Shown here: positions 10,746 through 54,877 of the stretch, piece after piece
Layout of the letters: each line of letters starts with the position of its first letter
Numbering within the stretch: the stretch's first letter is position 1
Assembly (NCBI RefSeq): GCF_014191255.1
Contig: NZ_JACHWH010000005.1
Location: forward strand, 1-64,000
Reading direction: 5' to 3'
Length of the DNA: 64,000 nt
Origin: Amycolatopsis bartoniae
GTDB taxonomy: Bacteria > Actinomycetota > Actinomycetes > Mycobacteriales > Pseudonocardiaceae
Made by a program: the position numbers and the translations under genes
Notes under the pieces: model-generated
What the model saw: only the letters and a program-made list of their open reading frames with translations
Told to the model about the DNA's origin: nothing
The model's database searches: none

Positions 10746-11720
10746 ATGACTCAGGCGGAGCCGGACCTGGCGGTCCGGGCGCGCGCGCTGGTCAAGACGT
10801 ACGGGGCCACGCGGGCGCTGGACGGCGTCGACCTCGACGTGCCCGCGGGGCAGGTGCTGGGCCTGCTCGGCCCCAACGGGGCGGGAAAGACCACCACGGT
10901 GCGAATCCTGACCACCCTGCTGCGGCCGGACTCGGGGGAGGCGCGCGTGGCGGGGCACGACGTGCTGGCGGAGCCGGACGCGGTGCGCCGCACGATCGGG
11001 TTGTCGGGCCAGTACGCGGCGGTGGACGAGAACCTCACGGGGTTCGAGAACCTGTACATGGTGGGCCGGTTCTACGGCAGGCGGAAGGCGTCGGCGCGGG
11101 CCAGGGCGCGGGAGCTGCTGGCCCGGTTCCGGCTGGAGGAGGCCGCCGACCGGCCCGCGAAGGGGTACTCGGGCGGGATGCGGCGGCGGCTCGACCTCGC
11201 GGGGGCACTGGTCGGGCAGCCCACCGTCGTCGTGCTCGACGAGCCGACCACGGGGCTCGACCCTGGCGGGCGCATCGACACGTGGCAGGTGATCAGGGAG
11301 CTGGTCGCGGACGGCACGTCGGTGCTGCTCACCACGCAGTACCTGGAGGAGGCCGACCAGCTCGCGGACACGATCGTCGTCATCGACTCCGGCCGGGTGA
11401 TCGCCCGCGGCACGGCCGACGAGCTGAAGGCGCAGACCGGGGGCGAGCGGCTGGAGCTGGTGCTGGCGTCGGCCGGAGACCTGCCGGTGGCGCTGGGTGT
11501 GCTGCGGGAGGTCGGTTCGGGCGAGCCGAGCGGGGACGAGCGTGCGCGGCGGGCGGAGATCCTGGTGGACACCGGCCCGAAGGCGCTGATCGAGGCGTTG
11601 CGCAGGCTCGACGCGGCGCAGGTCGTGGTGCAGGACGTGGCGCTGCACCGGCCCACCCTCGACGACGTGTTCCTGTCGCTCACCGGGCACGTGCCGGCAC
11701 CGGTGGAGGAGGCGAAGTGA
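10746..11720 (+). CDS. ABC transporter ATPase, daunorubicin-resistance (DrrA) type
   Basis: 324 aa. Walker A GPNGAGKTT at 42-50, signature YSGGMRRRLDLA near 143, Walker B VVLDEPTTGLDP near 160, switch region TTQYLEEAD. The roughly 100-residue C-terminal extension (typical of DrrA) begins near residue 220. ATG at 10746 follows AGGGGGAAGGA. It powers export of a hydrophobic compound together with the permease encoded next, whose GTG overlaps this stop by 4 nt (GTGA). The divergent neighbour is a sugar-acid dehydratase. No biosynthetic cluster adjoins it, so the cargo is unknown. Confidence 0.93.
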   Translation: MTQAEPDLAVRARALVKTYGATRALDGVDLDVPAGQVLGLLGPNGAGKTTTVRILTTLLRPDSGEARVAGHDVLAEPDAVRRTIGLSGQYAAVDENLTGFENLYMVGRFYGRRKASARARARELLARFRLEEAADRPAKGYSGGMRRRLDLAGALVGQPTVVVLDEPTTGLDPGGRIDTWQVIRELVADGTSVLLTTQYLEEADQLADTIVVIDSGRVIARGTADELKAQTGGERLELVLASAGDLPVALGVLREVGSGEPSGDERARRAEILVDTGPKALIEALRRLDAAQVVVQDVALHRPTLDDVFLSLTGHVPAPVEEAK

Positions 11721-12520
11721 ACGCGCTGGTGAAAGGGCTTTCCGACGGTGGGGTCGTGACGTGGCGGAACCTGCTGAACGTGCGGCGCAACCCGGACTGG
11801 CTGATGGCCGCCACGTTGCAGCCGATCATGTTCGTGCTGCTGTTCGCGTACGTCTTCGGCAACGCCATCGGCGGGGACGCCGGGGGCACCGCGTACCGGG
11901 AGTTCATGATCGCCGGGATCTTCGCGCAGACGGTGGCGTTCAACTCGGCGTTCACGGTGATTGGGTTCGCGAACGACCTGCAGAAGGGCATCATCGACCG
12001 GTTCCGCTCGCTGCCGATGTCCCGGCTGGCGGTGGTGCTGGGGCGCACCACGTCGGACCTGGTGGTGAGCGTGATCGCGCTGGTGGTGATGTCGCTGTGC
12101 GGGCTGCTGGTGGGCTGGCGGATCCGGGGCAGCGCGCTCGACGCGGTGCTGGCGTACCTGGTGATGCTGATGTTCGCGTGGGCGCTGTCGTGGGTGGGGG
12201 CGCTGATCGGGCTGACCGCGCGGAGCGTGGAGGTCGCGCAGAGCGCCGGGCTGATCTGGATGTTCCCGCTGAGCTTCGTCTCGTCGGCGTTCGTGCCGCT
12301 GGACAAGCTGCCCGCGGGGCTGCGGGTGATCGCGGAGTGGAACCCGTTCACGGCGGTGATCAACGCGACGCGGACCCTGTTCGGCAATCGGTTCGGCGCG
12401 CCACCGACGGGCTGGCCCGCGGAGCACGCGGCGCTGTACTCGATCGTGTGCTGCGTGGTGATCATCGCGGTGTTCGCCCCACTGGCGACGGCCAGGTACC
12501 GGAGGGTGGCGAGCAAGTAG
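11717..12520 (+). CDS. ABC-2 type exporter permease, DrrB type
   Basis: 267-aa membrane protein with six predicted helices and the ABC-2 motif region SSAFVPLDKLPAGLRVIAEW before the last helix. N-terminal RNLLNVRRNPDWLMAATLQP is typical of DrrB. GTG start at 11717 overlaps the ATPase stop (GTGA), so translation is coupled. It forms the membrane channel of the exporter with the DrrA-like ATPase. The gene ends at TAG 12518-12520, directly at the edge of the degenerate repeat array. Confidence 0.92.
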   Translation: MNALVKGLSDGGVVTWRNLLNVRRNPDWLMAATLQPIMFVLLFAYVFGNAIGGDAGGTAYREFMIAGIFAQTVAFNSAFTVIGFANDLQKGIIDRFRSLPMSRLAVVLGRTTSDLVVSVIALVVMSLCGLLVGWRIRGSALDAVLAYLVMLMFAWALSWVGALIGLTARSVEVAQSAGLIWMFPLSFVSSAFVPLDKLPAGLRVIAEWNPFTAVINATRTLFGNRFGAPPTGWPAEHAALYSIVCCVVIIAVFAPLATARYRRVASK

Positions 12521-12700
12521 TCCTTTGTGGAGGATGGTTGGCCGTTTCCGCGGCGGGACGGGCGCCCAGGCCGGGTGGGTTGGGCCCCGTGCGTGGCGGC
12601 CCGCCATCCTTCGCGCGGCGTCGCGCCCGCCGACGCGACCAGCCTCGCCAGCGATGCGGCACGGCCGGGGACCACCGAGACACCATAGTCCTTTGTGGAC
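12519..12700. repeat. Degenerate outermost units of the repeat array
   Basis: The segment tagtcctttgtgga occurs at 12518-12531 and again near 12686-12699. Between them, the stretch near 12618-12680 aligns with parts of the 181-bp unit (cgccgac-cgacca, then ccaccgagac), with an internal deletion. It looks like an older, eroded copy. No gene is visible in these 180 bases. Confidence 0.6.
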
Positions 12701-12881
12701 GATCCCGCGCCCTACCCCGCCTTCACCCTGGCGCAGACCCGCCGACACGACCAACCCCGCCAACGACGCGACACGCCCGGGGTCATCGGCAGCCGGGGGA
12801 TCGCCACCCGCAGACGCTCCACCCCCAGGGCACGGGTGGCGCGCCCGGGGGCCACCGAAACCCCGCGATTCAGCTGCGGAG
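12701..12881. repeat. Tandem unit 1 (181 bp): copy of the aminotransferase 3' end
   Basis: About 97% identical to unit 2 (five differences, including one extra C). Read on the minus strand it resembles the last 55 codons of the adjacent aminotransferase gene (RGVSVAPG, then LRVAIPRLP), including the stop codon position and the same 11 bases of 3' flank. It has lost a continuous reading frame. Confidence 0.85.
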
Positions 12882-13061
12882 GATCCCGCGCCCTACCCCG
12901 CCTTCACCCTGGCGCAGACCGCCGACACGACCAACCCCGTCAACGACGCGACACGCCCGGGGTCATCGGCAGCCGGGGGATCGCCACCCGCAGACGCTCC
13001 ACCCCCAGGGCACGGGTGGCGCGCCCGGGGGCCACCGAGACCCCGCGATTCAACTGCGAAG
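12882..13061. repeat. Tandem unit 2 (180 bp): copy of the aminotransferase 3' end
   Basis: It abuts unit 1 and the parental end (13062 onward). The first 34 bases are identical in unit 2 and the parental sequence, after which they diverge to a recognisable but lower identity. Units 1 and 2 are far closer to each other than to the parental end. Confidence 0.85.
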
Positions 13062-13072
13062 GATCCCGCGCC

Positions 13073-14152
13073 CTACCCCGCCTTCACCCTGGCGCGGACC
13101 GCCTGCGCGATCAACCCCGCCAGCGCCGCGACGCGGCCGACGTCGTCGGGCAGCCGCGTGATCGCCACCCGCAGGTGCTCCGCCGCCAGTGGGCGGGTCG
13201 CGCAGCGGGCGCCGGGACCCACCGAGACGCCGTGGTTCACCAGGCTGATCACGGCGCGGGTCTCGTCGGCCGCCGGGACCCACAGTGCCAGGCCGTCCGC
13301 CGCGTCCACCGCGACGCCCTGGGCCCGCAGGGCCTCGGCGAGCGCTTTCCGGCGGCGGGCGTAGCGGGCGCGGGCCCGGCGCAGCAACGCGCCCGTGTCC
13401 GGGTCCTCCACCAGGAACGCCTGCGCGTTCTGCAACACCCGCCCCGGCCACAGCGTGTCCAGCCGGTGCAGGCGCCGCGCCCGTTCCACCAGCTCCGCGG
13501 CCCCAGCGACGACACAGCTGCGCAGCTCGGGCCCGTACGCGGCGCAGTACGAGCGCACGTGCAGCACGCGGTCGGGCACGTACGCGCCCAGGCTCGGCGC
13601 CGGCACCGCGGCCAGCGGGCCGAGCGCGTCGTACTCGACCACCACCGCGTCGGAGTCGCGCACCACCCGCGCCAGCTCGGCCACCCGCTCCGCCGAAAAA
13701 CCCCGCCCCACCGGGATTCCCGCGCCCGGCTGGCACACGAACGCCACCGCCCGCCTGCGCAGCGCCGCCGCCAGCCCGTCCGGGTCGGGTCCCTCGGCGC
13801 CGACCGGCACGGGGAGCACGCGGACCCGCGCCTGCCGCAGGACGTCCACCAGCACCGGCGCCGTCGGCTCCTCGACCGCCACCACGTCCCCGGGCCGGGC
13901 CACCGCGCGGCACGCCACGCGGACGCCTTCCTCCCCGCCGCCCGCCGCGGTCCAGTCCGCCGCGGGAAACGGCCACGTCGGCTCGACCGCCGCGAGCAGC
14001 TGCGCGGTGATCCCGCGCGCGGTGTCCCAGGCGGACCGGGGCGTCCGCGCCCCCGCCGCGACGGCGTCTTCCAGCGGCGGCAGCAACGCGGGGTCGGGCA
14101 GCCCGTGCTCCAGGTCGACCGCCGCCCACAGGGCCGTGTCCATTTCCCGCAC
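13073..14152 (-). CDS. MocR-like aminotransferase-fold protein lacking the PLP lysine
   Basis: 359 aa, fold-type I aminotransferase resembling the C-terminal domain of MocR regulators; the usual N-terminal GntR winged helix is absent. In relatives the PLP-binding segment reads SYSKSHGPDLR; here it is SYCAAYGPELR, so the Schiff-base lysine is replaced by alanine. The usual EYD segment (VVVEYDALG) remains. It is probably a non-catalytic ligand-binding protein, or decayed. GTG at 14152 follows GAGAGGG; an ATG at 14143 is the alternative. It is the last gene of the peptide-transporter operon. Two partial copies of its 3' end lie downstream. Confidence 0.8.
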   Translation of the reverse strand: MREMDTALWAAVDLEHGLPDPALLPPLEDAVAAGARTPRSAWDTARGITAQLLAAVEPTWPFPAADWTAAGGGEEGVRVACRAVARPGDVVAVEEPTAPVLVDVLRQARVRVLPVPVGAEGPDPDGLAAALRRRAVAFVCQPGAGIPVGRGFSAERVAELARVVRDSDAVVVEYDALGPLAAVPAPSLGAYVPDRVLHVRSYCAAYGPELRSCVVAGAAELVERARRLHRLDTLWPGRVLQNAQAFLVEDPDTGALLRRARARYARRRKALAEALRAQGVAVDAADGLALWVPAADETRAVISLVNHGVSVGPGARCATRPLAAEHLRVAITRLPDDVGRVAALAGLIAQAVRARVKAG

Positions 14153-32224: not shown

Positions 32225-32292
32225 GCCGGAGGGTGCCGCGCGCCGTGTACACCGACGTCCTGACCTCGGTGGGGCGCCCCGGATGCGGTTGA

Positions 32293-32318
32293 GCGGTGGC
32301 GCGAGACTGCGCCACCGC
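32293..32318. terminator. Bidirectional terminator hairpin
   Basis: Perfect 10-bp stem GCGGTGGCGC / GCGCCACCGC with loop GAGACT, between the convergent genes ending at 32224 (+) and 32335 (-). There is no U-tract, which is usual for high-GC actinomycete terminators. Confidence 0.75.
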
Positions 32319-32334
32319 CCTCACCTGGACTGTT

Positions 32335-32934
32335 TCAGACGGCAGTCCACTCCTCGTGCCCGGCCGGAACGATGCCCCAGTCCTTGTTCGCGGGATCGAT
32401 ACCGCCGATCCAGTCGTGACCGGCGGGCACCACGCCGCCCATCGAGTCGTGACCGGCCGGGTTGACCCCGTTGATCCAGATGTGACCGGCAGGCACCACG
32501 CCCCAGTCCCTGTTCCCGGCCGTCACGCTGTCGATCCAGATGTGACCGGCGGGCTCGAGACCGCCGATCCACTCGTCCCCCGCCGGGCCGAAGCCGTCGT
32601 GCCAGGGATTGCCGCTCAGGGTGAGCCCGCCGTGCCAGGGGTTGCCCTCCAAAGTAAGGCTTCCATGCCACGGGTTCCCGCTCAGCGTGAGATCACCGTG
32701 CCAGGGGTGGCCCACCGGGACGACCCCGTCTCCCCAGTCATGACCTGCGGAGACCACACCGTCGTCCCACATGTGGCCTGCCGGAAGCGCGTTCTCGTGG
32801 TAGCCGGCCGTGATCACGCCGCCGTCGACGTGGCCCGACGGCGCCGCGTTCGTCTCGTGGCTGCCCGCCAGCAGCACTGCCGCCGCCAGGGCTGGGCCTG
32901 TCAGCACCGCCGCCGCCAGGAATCTGATCCCCAT
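32335..32934 (-). CDS. Secreted protein made of about 16 imperfect 11-residue GHxW repeats
   Basis: 199 aa. A signal peptide (GIRFLAAAVLTGPALAAAVL) is probably cleaved near residue 33. The whole mature chain is about 16 tandem units of 8-11 residues, consensus G(H/N)xWxxGxxPA, for example GHDWGDGVVPV, GNPWHGSLTLE and GHDWIGGIDPA. His, Trp and Gly are strikingly regular; there is no Cys. I know no family with this repeat. A small beta-solenoid or hairpin array, metal- or wall-binding, is conceivable. ATG at 32934 follows AGGAGG; an ATG at 32967 is less likely. It lies downstream of a lytic transglycosylase gene on the same strand. Confidence 0.85.
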   Translation of the reverse strand: MGIRFLAAAVLTGPALAAAVLLAGSHETNAAPSGHVDGGVITAGYHENALPAGHMWDDGVVSAGHDWGDGVVPVGHPWHGDLTLSGNPWHGSLTLEGNPWHGGLTLSGNPWHDGFGPAGDEWIGGLEPAGHIWIDSVTAGNRDWGVVPAGHIWINGVNPAGHDSMGGVVPAGHDWIGGIDPANKDWGIVPAGHEEWTAV

Positions 32935-32991
32935 GACGTTCCTCCTGTATGCCCGAATCCTCCGCACCGAACGCTAGTGGCACGAGCACAC

Positions 32992-33025
32992 GGCGGACGT
33001 CCGCCTCATTACGTATTCCGCGTAA
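32992..33025. promoter_or_regulatory. Two palindromes between the transglycosylase and repeat-protein genes
   Basis: GGCGGACGTCCGCC (32992-33005, perfect 14-bp palindrome) and TTACG-tattccg-CGTAA (33009-33025). They lie 58-91 bases upstream of the repeat-protein start and could be terminator and operator elements. The segment is more AT-rich than its surroundings. Confidence 0.5.
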
Positions 33026-33051
33026 GTAGATTTGCGTACCCGGAAAAAGGA

Positions 33052-33759
33052 TCAGTAGCCCCGGTAGCCGCCGCCGGAGTTGATCGACCTGATGCCCGGG
33101 TGCTCGGAAAACGCACCATAACGGCCAATCGTGTAACGCACGCCCGCGATGATGTTGTCCACCGGATCGAGGATGTCGTCGTGCCCGGGCAGCTTGTTCG
33201 CCTCGAACGTGAAGTCCGTGCACTGCATGAGCCCCTTCGACGGGTGCCCGGCGCGCGCGTTCGCGTCCCACCGGTTCACCGCCTCCGGATCACCGTCGGA
33301 CTCTTTCTCGATCACCGTGCGGATCGCCGGAATGTCCTCAGTAGACACTGGAATTCCTTGTGCCCGCAGGATTTCCACAGCCTCGGTGATCCACTGGGTC
33401 ACCTGGTCACCCACCGGCTCAGCGCTGCCCGCGGGCGGCTGCGGCGGCGCTTCCACCTTCGGCGCCGCCGACTTCGGCTGGGCCAGCGGCAGCACCACAC
33501 CGGGGTCGGCGGCCGTGGTTCCGGGCACACCGAGCACGGACGCCACCGGCAACGGCGCCGACGCGGCCACGACAGGGGCCGGAGGCGTGTCGGTGCCGGC
33601 GAGCGCCACCGGCGCGGCACTGCCGGTGACCGAAAGGGCCAGCACACCGGCGGACACCGTGGTCCGCGCGAGGTTCCGCGAAACGGGGGCGCGGTGCCGC
33701 GGCGGGGAATACGGCGAGTTCTTGCGTCGGGCGCGCGTGTTCGCGCAGTGGTTTCCCAC
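33052..33759 (-). CDS. Secreted lytic transglycosylase (SLT domain)
   Basis: 235 aa. A signal-peptide-like helix (TTVSAGVLALSVTGSAAPVA) is preceded by a long Arg-rich N-region. A Pro/Ala-rich linker follows, then the SLT domain from about residue 120: catalytic Glu in VIEKESDGDPEAVNRWD, then GLMQ and the C-terminal NIIAGVRYTIGRYG. It cleaves peptidoglycan between MurNAc and GlcNAc, aiding wall remodelling. GTG at 33759 has GAGGAG 11 nt upstream; the frame is open to 33792. The 276-base leader (33760-34035) is long and unassigned. Confidence 0.88.
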   Translation of the reverse strand: MGNHCANTRARRKNSPYSPPRHRAPVSRNLARTTVSAGVLALSVTGSAAPVALAGTDTPPAPVVAASAPLPVASVLGVPGTTAADPGVVLPLAQPKSAAPKVEAPPQPPAGSAEPVGDQVTQWITEAVEILRAQGIPVSTEDIPAIRTVIEKESDGDPEAVNRWDANARAGHPSKGLMQCTDFTFEANKLPGHDDILDPVDNIIAGVRYTIGRYGAFSEHPGIRSINSGGGYRGY

Positions 33760-34035
33760 GGGGAAAAGGTCTCCTCGGGTCGGGGTACGCACACCGACCT
33801 GTCGGGGGCCAGGCCGGCCGGGTCCACTGCGGGCGGTGAAACCGCGGATCTCCGCAGGACCTCGGCCAGATTACGAAGAGAAAACGGCAATATCACGCGA
33901 CGGTGACGAGTGCCACAACAACGTCAGGTTTGAACAAGCGGACGAATGGCAAGGAAACCGCTGATCAGCGCTTCTTTTTTACCCTTCGTACAGGATCGAT
34001 TACAGTCGCCGGAAACCGAATTACACGCCGGTAAT
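33760..34035. other. Long 5' leader of the transglycosylase gene
   Basis: No gene is visible. Transglycosylase and Rpf genes in actinomycetes often carry a c-di-AMP (ydaO) riboswitch here, but I cannot find its conserved cores. Near 33970-33982 on the plus strand a CGCTGATCAGCG palindrome is followed by a run of T; no gene would use it as a terminator. Confidence 0.4.
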
Positions 34036-54168: not shown

Positions 54169-54849
54169 TCAGCGCTCCGCCGAGGCCAGGACCTTCCGCA
54201 GCTCTTCGGCGCTCACCGGGTGCCCCGGAACGTCCATGAAGTTCTCCGCCCCGCCCGCGTACGGCGGGCCGTACGCCGGGGTGCCGGGCTGGAACCGCCA
54301 GCCCTCGGACAGCGGGCCCGCGTCCACGGTGTCGTAGCCGAGGTCGTCGAGGAACGCGGTCACCGTCGCCTTCGCGCCGGCGTCGTCGCCCGCGATGGCC
54401 AGTGCGCTGCGGTCCGCCGCGCCCGCCGGGCGGGCCAGCTCGCCCAGGTGCCGGAAGAAGATGTTGTTGAACGCCTTCACCACCTTCGCGTCCGCCAGGT
54501 GCCGCTGCACCAGCTCGGTCTGGGTGGTCGTGCCGTCCGCCAGCTCGGCGATCTCGCCGTCGCGGGCCGGGTAGTAGTTGCCCGTGTCGATGACGACCTT
54601 CCCGGCCAGCGGCGCGGCCGGCACGTCCCGGTAGCGGCCCAGCGGGATCGAGACCACCACCAGGTCACCCGCCTCGGCGGCCTCCGCCGCCGTCGCCGCG
54701 CGCGCCTTCGGACCCAGCTCCGCCACCAGCTCGCCCAGCGTTTCCGGGCCGCGCGAGTTGCTGAGCACCACGTCGTATCCGGCGGCGACGGCGAGGCGCG
54801 CCACGGTCGACCCGATGTGGCCGCTGCCGATGAGTCCCAGTGTTGTCAT
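54169..54849 (-). CDS. NAD(P)-binding reductase, F420-dependent NADP reductase (Fno) type
   Basis: 226 aa. Rossmann motif LIGSGHIGSTVARLA at 5-19 and SNSRGPETL after beta-2 (NADP-phosphate binding), then VVKAFNNIFF. It resembles Fno/NADPH-dependent F420 reductase and the related NAD-binding domain proteins. It may shuttle hydride between NADPH and F420, or use another partner. ATG at 54849; 28 nt downstream of the aldolase stop on the same strand, so it could be read through from the sugar operon. Confidence 0.88.
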   Translation of the reverse strand: MTTLGLIGSGHIGSTVARLAVAAGYDVVLSNSRGPETLGELVAELGPKARAATAAEAAEAGDLVVVSIPLGRYRDVPAAPLAGKVVIDTGNYYPARDGEIAELADGTTTQTELVQRHLADAKVVKAFNNIFFRHLGELARPAGAADRSALAIAGDDAGAKATVTAFLDDLGYDTVDAGPLSEGWRFQPGTPAYGPPYAGGAENFMDVPGHPVSAEELRKVLASAER

Positions 54850-54877
54850 GTACGCAACCAACGCCGCCCGCCGCGGG

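Follow-up and report, generated by a model that had tools for sequence, protein, structure and literature searches.

Introduction

The reading frame at positions 32335–32934 of the 64,000-nucleotide window (the whole stretch of DNA analysed here) raises the question of whether it encodes a lone secreted protein of GHxW repeats, as a sequence-only reading had proposed, or a representative of a wider family, and what such a chain might do outside the cell. The answer is developed from the gene and its array, through the relatives and their surroundings, to the readings of function.

Results

The repeat gene and its array

The frame 32934–32335 is a genuine gene whose product consists of repeats behind a signal-like start. 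Its features are as follows.

32335..32934, minus strand: coding sequence, 199 amino acids plus TGA (codon-position GC pattern, translation)
32845..32934, minus strand: signal-peptide-like N-terminus, residues 1–30, cleavage placed by eye at about SHETNA/A
32338..32844, minus strand: repeat array of 15–16 units, period mostly 11 residues, types GHxDGG and G[HN]xW (parsing, self-identity)
32940..32946, minus strand: Shine-Dalgarno-like AGGAGGA, 5 nt upstream of the ATG (sequence)

The coordinates and frame of the sequence-only reading are right, with the gene on the minus strand running from an ATG at 32934 to a TGA at 32335–32337 and the AGGAGGA ahead of the ATG. The protein begins with MGIRFLAAAVLTG and continues as array only. 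Codon-position GC is 0.705/0.54/0.855, a pattern that resembles the 0.688/0.567/0.838 of the neighbouring gene and is the one that a translated frame should show; it thus speaks against the untranslated frame that had been named as a possible refutation. Moreover, G[HNQY]x[WDE] motifs reach 6.1 per 100 aa in the repeat frame, the runner-up among the 433 stop-to-stop frames of at least 80 aa in the window reaching 2.1. Compared in all pairs, which are non-independent, the nine G[HN]xW units of the gene give pS 0.63 and pN 0.38, so that synonymous change exceeds replacement. A chance reading frame was rejected in view of the codon pattern, the shuffles and the relatives. Judged by eye from its signal-like start, the protein is probably exported.

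When the mature part is compared with itself at a shift of 11 residues, the identity is 0.40; the highest value at any lag from 1 to 44 in 2000 residue shuffles was 0.22. The 169 residues following the approximately 30 signal-like ones parse into 15 units. Since one of these is overlong and hides a second, degenerate unit, the earlier count of about 16 is a fair one. The chain is, as had been described, secreted-looking and repeat-only, with units running from the signal-like start to the stop, and the reported absence of Cys is correct. The proposed G(H/N)xW unit holds in part: the array is real, and a strict fit to G[HN]xW is found in only nine units. The first two units, GHVDGG and GYHEN, are of another kind and are followed mostly by W units, several units have no His or Trp at the expected position, and the chain ends in GHEEWTAV. 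DNA repeats of period 33 lie within the array at 32390–32571 and 32594–32712. Elsewhere in the window, a 180-bp DNA tandem repeat at 12697–13203 (2.8 copies, 90% match) is open in more than one frame and lies mostly between the minus-strand ORFs 11680–12675 and 13073–14152.

The repeat unit across eight members

Eight distinct members are recognised: the window protein, those of genomes G011, G012, G017, G850 and G915, and those of Actinomadura fibrosa (L007) and Nonomuraea gerenzanensis. Rather than the lone GHxW protein first described, the window protein is thus one of an eight-member, patchy family. All eight share an architecture of a signal-like start, judged by eye, followed by 9–11 residue G-[HNQY]-x-[WDE] units and no other domain, with about 30 extra residues ahead of the array in G011. 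For parsing, units were cut at a Gly that follows A/V/T/S/L/E/N/P/I/G, precedes H/N/Q/Y/D/E/R/F and lies at least 8 residues past the previous cut; the start was picked by eye for each protein, and later positions were not used in cutting.

The position three residues after the Gly (G+3) holds W in 32, D in 26, E in 13 and S in one of the 72 parsed units, giving W/D/E in 71 of 72, counts that come from eight related proteins and are not independent. By this parsing the unit is G-[H/N/Q/Y]-x-[W/D/E], broader than GHxW. The regularity of His and Trp noted earlier belongs to the W unit type, which is one of two, the fixed position being occupied by W, D or E. Both types, W (GHDWIGG) and D (GHVDGGV), coexist within single chains, and the Nonomuraea chains are nearly all of D/E type with a closing W cap. 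Separately, the G011 array (L005/L047) alternates W-type with D/E-type units to form a 20-residue super-repeat; as its locus is syntenic with that of the window, the order of units can differ at a conserved locus.

His is present in 64 of the 72 parsed units, Asp or Glu likewise in 64, one or the other in all 72, and Lys or Arg in four. Splitting two 20-residue units yields 74, with His in 64, Asp/Glu in 65 and either in 73, the degenerate GASGVTFVPA of A. fibrosa being the sole unit that lacks all three residues. Each repeat region carries 0–2 Lys/Arg and a net charge of −4 to −18 (G011 is counted from residue 60, leaving out the approximately 30 residues that precede its array). Number, order and type of units vary between members, from 4 to 15 units per chain. 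The C-terminus falls six residues into a W-type unit in six of the eight chains (GHDWVG, GHDWIG, GNPWHG, GHPWDN); this cap is missing in the window protein and in G011, which ends in GQFEVVP, and is therefore frequent without being defining.

Relatives and rejected matches

Across the actinomycetes searched, the family is patchy, and eight members are a lower bound, since candidate lists were often partly scored and the queries reach near members only. In the organism's own genus, 4 of 19 genomes match at E 0.001 (its own, G011, G012 and G017), all confirmed by reading. The own family gives six matching genomes among 297, comprising these four and two with pentapeptide-repeat proteins, and the G012 protein as query matches 5 of 220 family genomes, three of them true (own, G011, G017) and two false. 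A search of genome contigs yielded the A. fibrosa protein as one relative among 31 candidate stretches; used as a query, this protein matches 3 of 250 genomes of another family, one truly (G850). The N. gerenzanensis protein comes from the plasmid collection at a weak E of 9e-3; reading of the sequence and the G850 query (3e-18) both confirm it. Seven of the 54 genomes of G850's genus match, the true ones being G850, G915 and G907. The G907 protein is identical to that of N. gerenzanensis, with which it is counted once, and on this identity G850 and G915 are provisionally assigned to Nonomuraea. The G915 protein matches 2 of 220 genomes, one truly (G850).

Other searches mark the reach of the queries. 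In a class draw of 128 genomes, the G850 query returned one false match and missed the window gene, and hence does not reach W-type members. Profile A1, run over 394 class genomes, returned the own genome alone among the matches listed, with 17 of the 26–114 candidates per genome scored in the 21 genomes listed, and a codon-restricted pattern over the same number of class genomes missed even the own gene, so that its result carries no weight. Phages, viral contigs and, with the G012 protein as query, plasmids gave no relevant match.

Several matches were set aside. The pentapeptide-repeat proteins L002, L008 and L009, with E down to 5e-8, score through their period and W/F/D content and were judged compositional on reading; unlike the repeat family, they have a 5-residue period and a long non-repeat N-terminal part. 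The actinomycete S8 proteases L048 and L049 resemble the family in being bacterial and secreted-looking and in carrying tandem G-H/S-x-W, but their period is 5 residues, the repeat is the tail of an enzyme instead of a stand-alone chain, and PAGHxDGG units are absent; L051–L053 match that pattern again at these two loci. The C-terminal GHTWSG/GSAWTG repeats of these proteases, seen in two genomes of one genus, are another Trp/His repeat in their own right. Also rejected were L050 (an unrelated frame), L056/L057 (kinase-like on reading), L062–L065 (other low-complexity frames, among which L064 reads as PAGH repeats but outside the frame of the likely peptidase gene there), L072 and L073 (on reading their sequences) and L076 (trypsin-like by eye). 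L067 (25% identity, three internal stops, E 6.7e-5) was dropped without full reading, and four Borrelia plasmid matches to the G850 query (E 1e-4 to 1e-3) were assumed to be chance. Because false matches reach E 5e-8, kinship was judged by architecture, start and end motifs and G011 synteny. The probable homology of the W-rich and D-rich groups is accordingly based on mixed chains and on motifs shared at the start, in the unit and at the end, and not on E-values.

Family and structure libraries

Neither Pfam nor NCBIfam contains a match to the window protein at E up to 10, PHROGs contains none either, and no PDB chain matches the protein or an 8-row profile at E up to 10, in agreement with the earlier view that it is unlike known families. 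The eight members give weak, single-member matches only, the best at E 0.1 (Pfam), 0.036 (NCBIfam) and 0.012 (PHROGs), and their Pfam matches at E up to 1 include no chaplin model. Rfam over the window gave nothing relevant, and no description of such repeat proteins was recognised in the openings of the abstracts searched. The repeat family as found here is, as far as its sequences tell, absent from the libraries searched. Structure prediction, which the sequence-only reading had suggested, was run and produced no fold: AlphaFold2 gives a mean pLDDT of 32.0 for the full protein (2-row alignment) and 36.1 for the mature protein (single sequence), with no residue above 70 in either. Such low values fit disorder without proving it, AlphaFold on one or two sequences often being poor for repeats.

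Flanking DNA and neighbouring genes

Three further features surround the gene.

32291..32320, minus strand: G+C-rich hairpin, 12-bp, directly past the stop codon, terminator-like, no T run (folding)
33018..33038, minus strand: upstream element TACGCAAATCTACTTACGCGG, conserved with the syntenic G011 gene (comparison with G011)
33052..33792, minus strand: lytic transglycosylase-like protein, secreted-looking, SLT domain, upstream neighbour (Pfam PF01464, E 7.4e-10)

The window-gene hairpin has a z of −2.47, with 6 of 200 shuffles folding as well. A hairpin lies directly 3' of the gene in seven of the eight members (z −2.1 to −6.2), the exception being G011 (z 0.22). A scan at the window gene found no sigma-70-type promoter or T-run terminator. 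The upstream element occurs once in its own genome with up to 3 mismatches allowed, and such a single core motif is not an obvious regulon site. The 117-bp gap between the repeat gene and the transglycosylase gene is conserved in blocks with G011. The repeat gene may thus be its own transcription unit, with its own promoter and terminator.

The adjacency to a lytic transglycosylase, to which the sequence-only reading had drawn attention, is present here and in G011 and does not characterise the family as a whole. All 19 genus genomes contain a transglycosylase-like match at 1e-20, and the repeat gene lies beside it at 2 of 13 close full-length loci (own and G011; L015–L027, 1.5 kb downstream). 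The N. gerenzanensis gene is flanked by genes for a GH43 xylosidase and a CBM-bearing GH10 xylanase, an arrangement that recurs by eye in G915, and in G850 a DUF2867 gene separates the repeat gene from the nearby GH43 gene. Different genes, as judged by eye, adjoin the repeat genes of G012, G017 and A. fibrosa (two of G012's neighbours were scanned by model). No single partner gene emerges from these neighbourhoods. A RiPP precursor was considered and rejected, given the signal-like start and with no modifying enzyme recognised among the listed neighbours. Additionally, the first residues of the minus-strand gene at 54169–54861 resemble those of the F420/NADP oxidoreductase gene flanking the G012 repeat gene (L045:7829–8509); within the window, this gene and the repeat gene are about 21 kb apart.

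Between the window and G011, the repeat gene shows pS 0.74 (near saturation) and pN 0.44, against 0.42 and 0.23 for the transglycosylase. By these alignments the repeat gene evolves faster than its neighbour, with aligned non-matching units inflating both pS and pN. The three Nonomuraea genes differ from each other by pS 0.28–0.35 and pN 0.19–0.25. Constraint on the repeat-protein sequence looks weak.

Discussion

A sticker-and-spacer polymer as the preferred reading

A free number and order of units, combined with fixed unit chemistry, next to no Lys/Arg and no predicted fold, speaks for a polymer whose stickers matter and against a folded enzyme or domain. The reading preferred here, to which we give a probability of roughly one in three (about 0.35), is that the chain is a disordered acidic His/Trp polymer that forms, outside the cell, a condensate or coat responding to pH or metal, by analogy with the squid-beak GHGxY proteins. 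The mature chain would remain intrinsically disordered after export, presenting His, Trp and Asp/Glu after each Gly as regularly spaced stickers, with flexible spacers of Gly/Pro/Val/Ala, for instance GVVPAG, in between. Few Lys/Arg and a net charge of −4 to −18 would keep chains soluble alone; pH, a divalent metal or a polysaccharide surface would bring them together by neutralising or bridging them, and the associated chains could then cover the wall or cell surface as a condensate, gel or coat. The mode of working would be that of the squid-beak proteins, without kinship to them.

The squid proteins HBP-1 and HBP-2 are like the repeat family in being extracellular, disordered and poor in trypsin sites (two only in HBP-2) and in carrying a Gly/His/aromatic tandem motif (PMC6884462). 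The same source describes tandem GHGLY peptides that phase-separate at four repeats or more, through a switch in which His is deprotonated and His–Tyr contacts follow (PMC6884462). The squid proteins are animal and built of Tyr pentads, whereas the family has 9–11 residue units with Trp or Asp/Glu; no evidence of homology was found. Tandem GHGxY pentads are absent from the family, the units being mostly 9–11 residues with W/D/E at G+3. Squid HBPs are also less acidic than the repeat family, and an acidic chain may resist self-association, which counts against a condensate, as do the 8 of 72 units without His and the degenerate A. fibrosa unit that has neither His nor an acidic residue. The short C-terminal cap in six of eight members suggests some specific recognition, for which a plain polymer has no need. 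The more far-reaching proposal, that these exported polymers toggle the sticker between Trp and Asp/Glu unit by unit to give a tunable condensate or gel, and so form an independent prokaryotic counterpart of the squid-beak coacervate proteins, is a doubtful one, given clearly lower odds.

Alternative readings

The closest rival is an extracellular metal-binding chain in which His with nearby Asp/Glu/Asn (and Trp) would buffer, scavenge or present Cu, Zn or Ni, in the manner of prion octarepeats or histidine-rich glycoprotein; this reading is tentative, with the odds some three to one against it, and it could share a mechanism with the condensate. The composition is favourable, with His and Asp/Glu each in 64 of 72 units and one or the other in all 72 (73 of 74 once split), and the nine GNPWH units, in which N replaces the first H, carry His three residues on. 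Against it, eight of the 72 units have no His, among them three of the eight of G012, and inspection of the gene surroundings by eye revealed no metal transporter or regulator (10 neighbours scanned by model). The prion octarepeat is reported to bind Cu(II)/Zn(II) (PMC2663819, PMC10249355). Its PHGGGWGQ unit shares with the family His and Trp in a Gly-rich tandem repeat, but it is 8 residues long, with three Gly between His and Trp where the family has one residue, and it is part of a larger protein; homology was not seen (no PDB sequence match). HGGGW is the copper coordination motif of the octarepeat, and none of the 72 parsed units contains it, H-x-W or H-x-D/E being found instead.

An unlikely reading is that the repeats stack as a beta-solenoid or an amyloid-like fibre at the surface of cell or spore, in a chaplin-like role, with Gly-His/Asn turns and V-V-P or L-T-L strands as the rungs. 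The regular 9–11 residue period and the hydrophobic stretches between polar cores are consistent with it, and ladders could arise from the fixed position occupied by a polar residue or Trp. AlphaFold, however, gives only scattered low-confidence strands, many spacers contain Pro, and a family match is absent. Chaplins, which are small surface proteins that actinomycetes secrete and which carry Gly-Asn motifs, consist of a single amyloid-forming domain and are not known to have an 11-residue array.

Less probable again is a wall- or polysaccharide-binding protein, as the sequence-only reading had considered, partnering the neighbouring lytic transglycosylase or plant-polymer hydrolases. Exposed Trp is common in sugar binding, the transglycosylase adjoins the gene here and in G011, and the GH43 and GH10-CBM genes flank it in N. 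gerenzanensis and, by eye, in G915. Against this reading, the 1.5 kb downstream of 11 of the 13 close transglycosylase orthologues contains no repeat gene, different genes adjoin it by eye in G012, G017 and A. fibrosa, and the Nonomuraea repeat regions hold only 1–2 Trp.

Most improbable is a multi-copy precursor, comparable to yeast alpha-factor, that an exported protease would cut into many similar peptides for signalling or for acting on other cells: short tandem units behind a signal-like start and the common stop point six residues into a unit in six of eight chains accord with it, but there is no common basic cleavage motif (0–2 Lys/Arg per repeat region), the units of one protein differ widely, and no maturation enzyme was recognised among the listed neighbours.

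Implications

Annotation readily misses secreted proteins of low-complexity repeats; no feature is listed for the N. gerenzanensis repeat gene, a weak indication given that the gene table holds just 10 features for the whole record. Should neither the condensate nor the metal reading be true, the family would still be a fast-changing secreted one that the searched libraries lack. If either is true, it would provide short, simply coded Trp/His polymers with natural variants of 4 to 15 units, and such polymers would be handy for testing the effect of sequence on extracellular assembly in actinomycetes.
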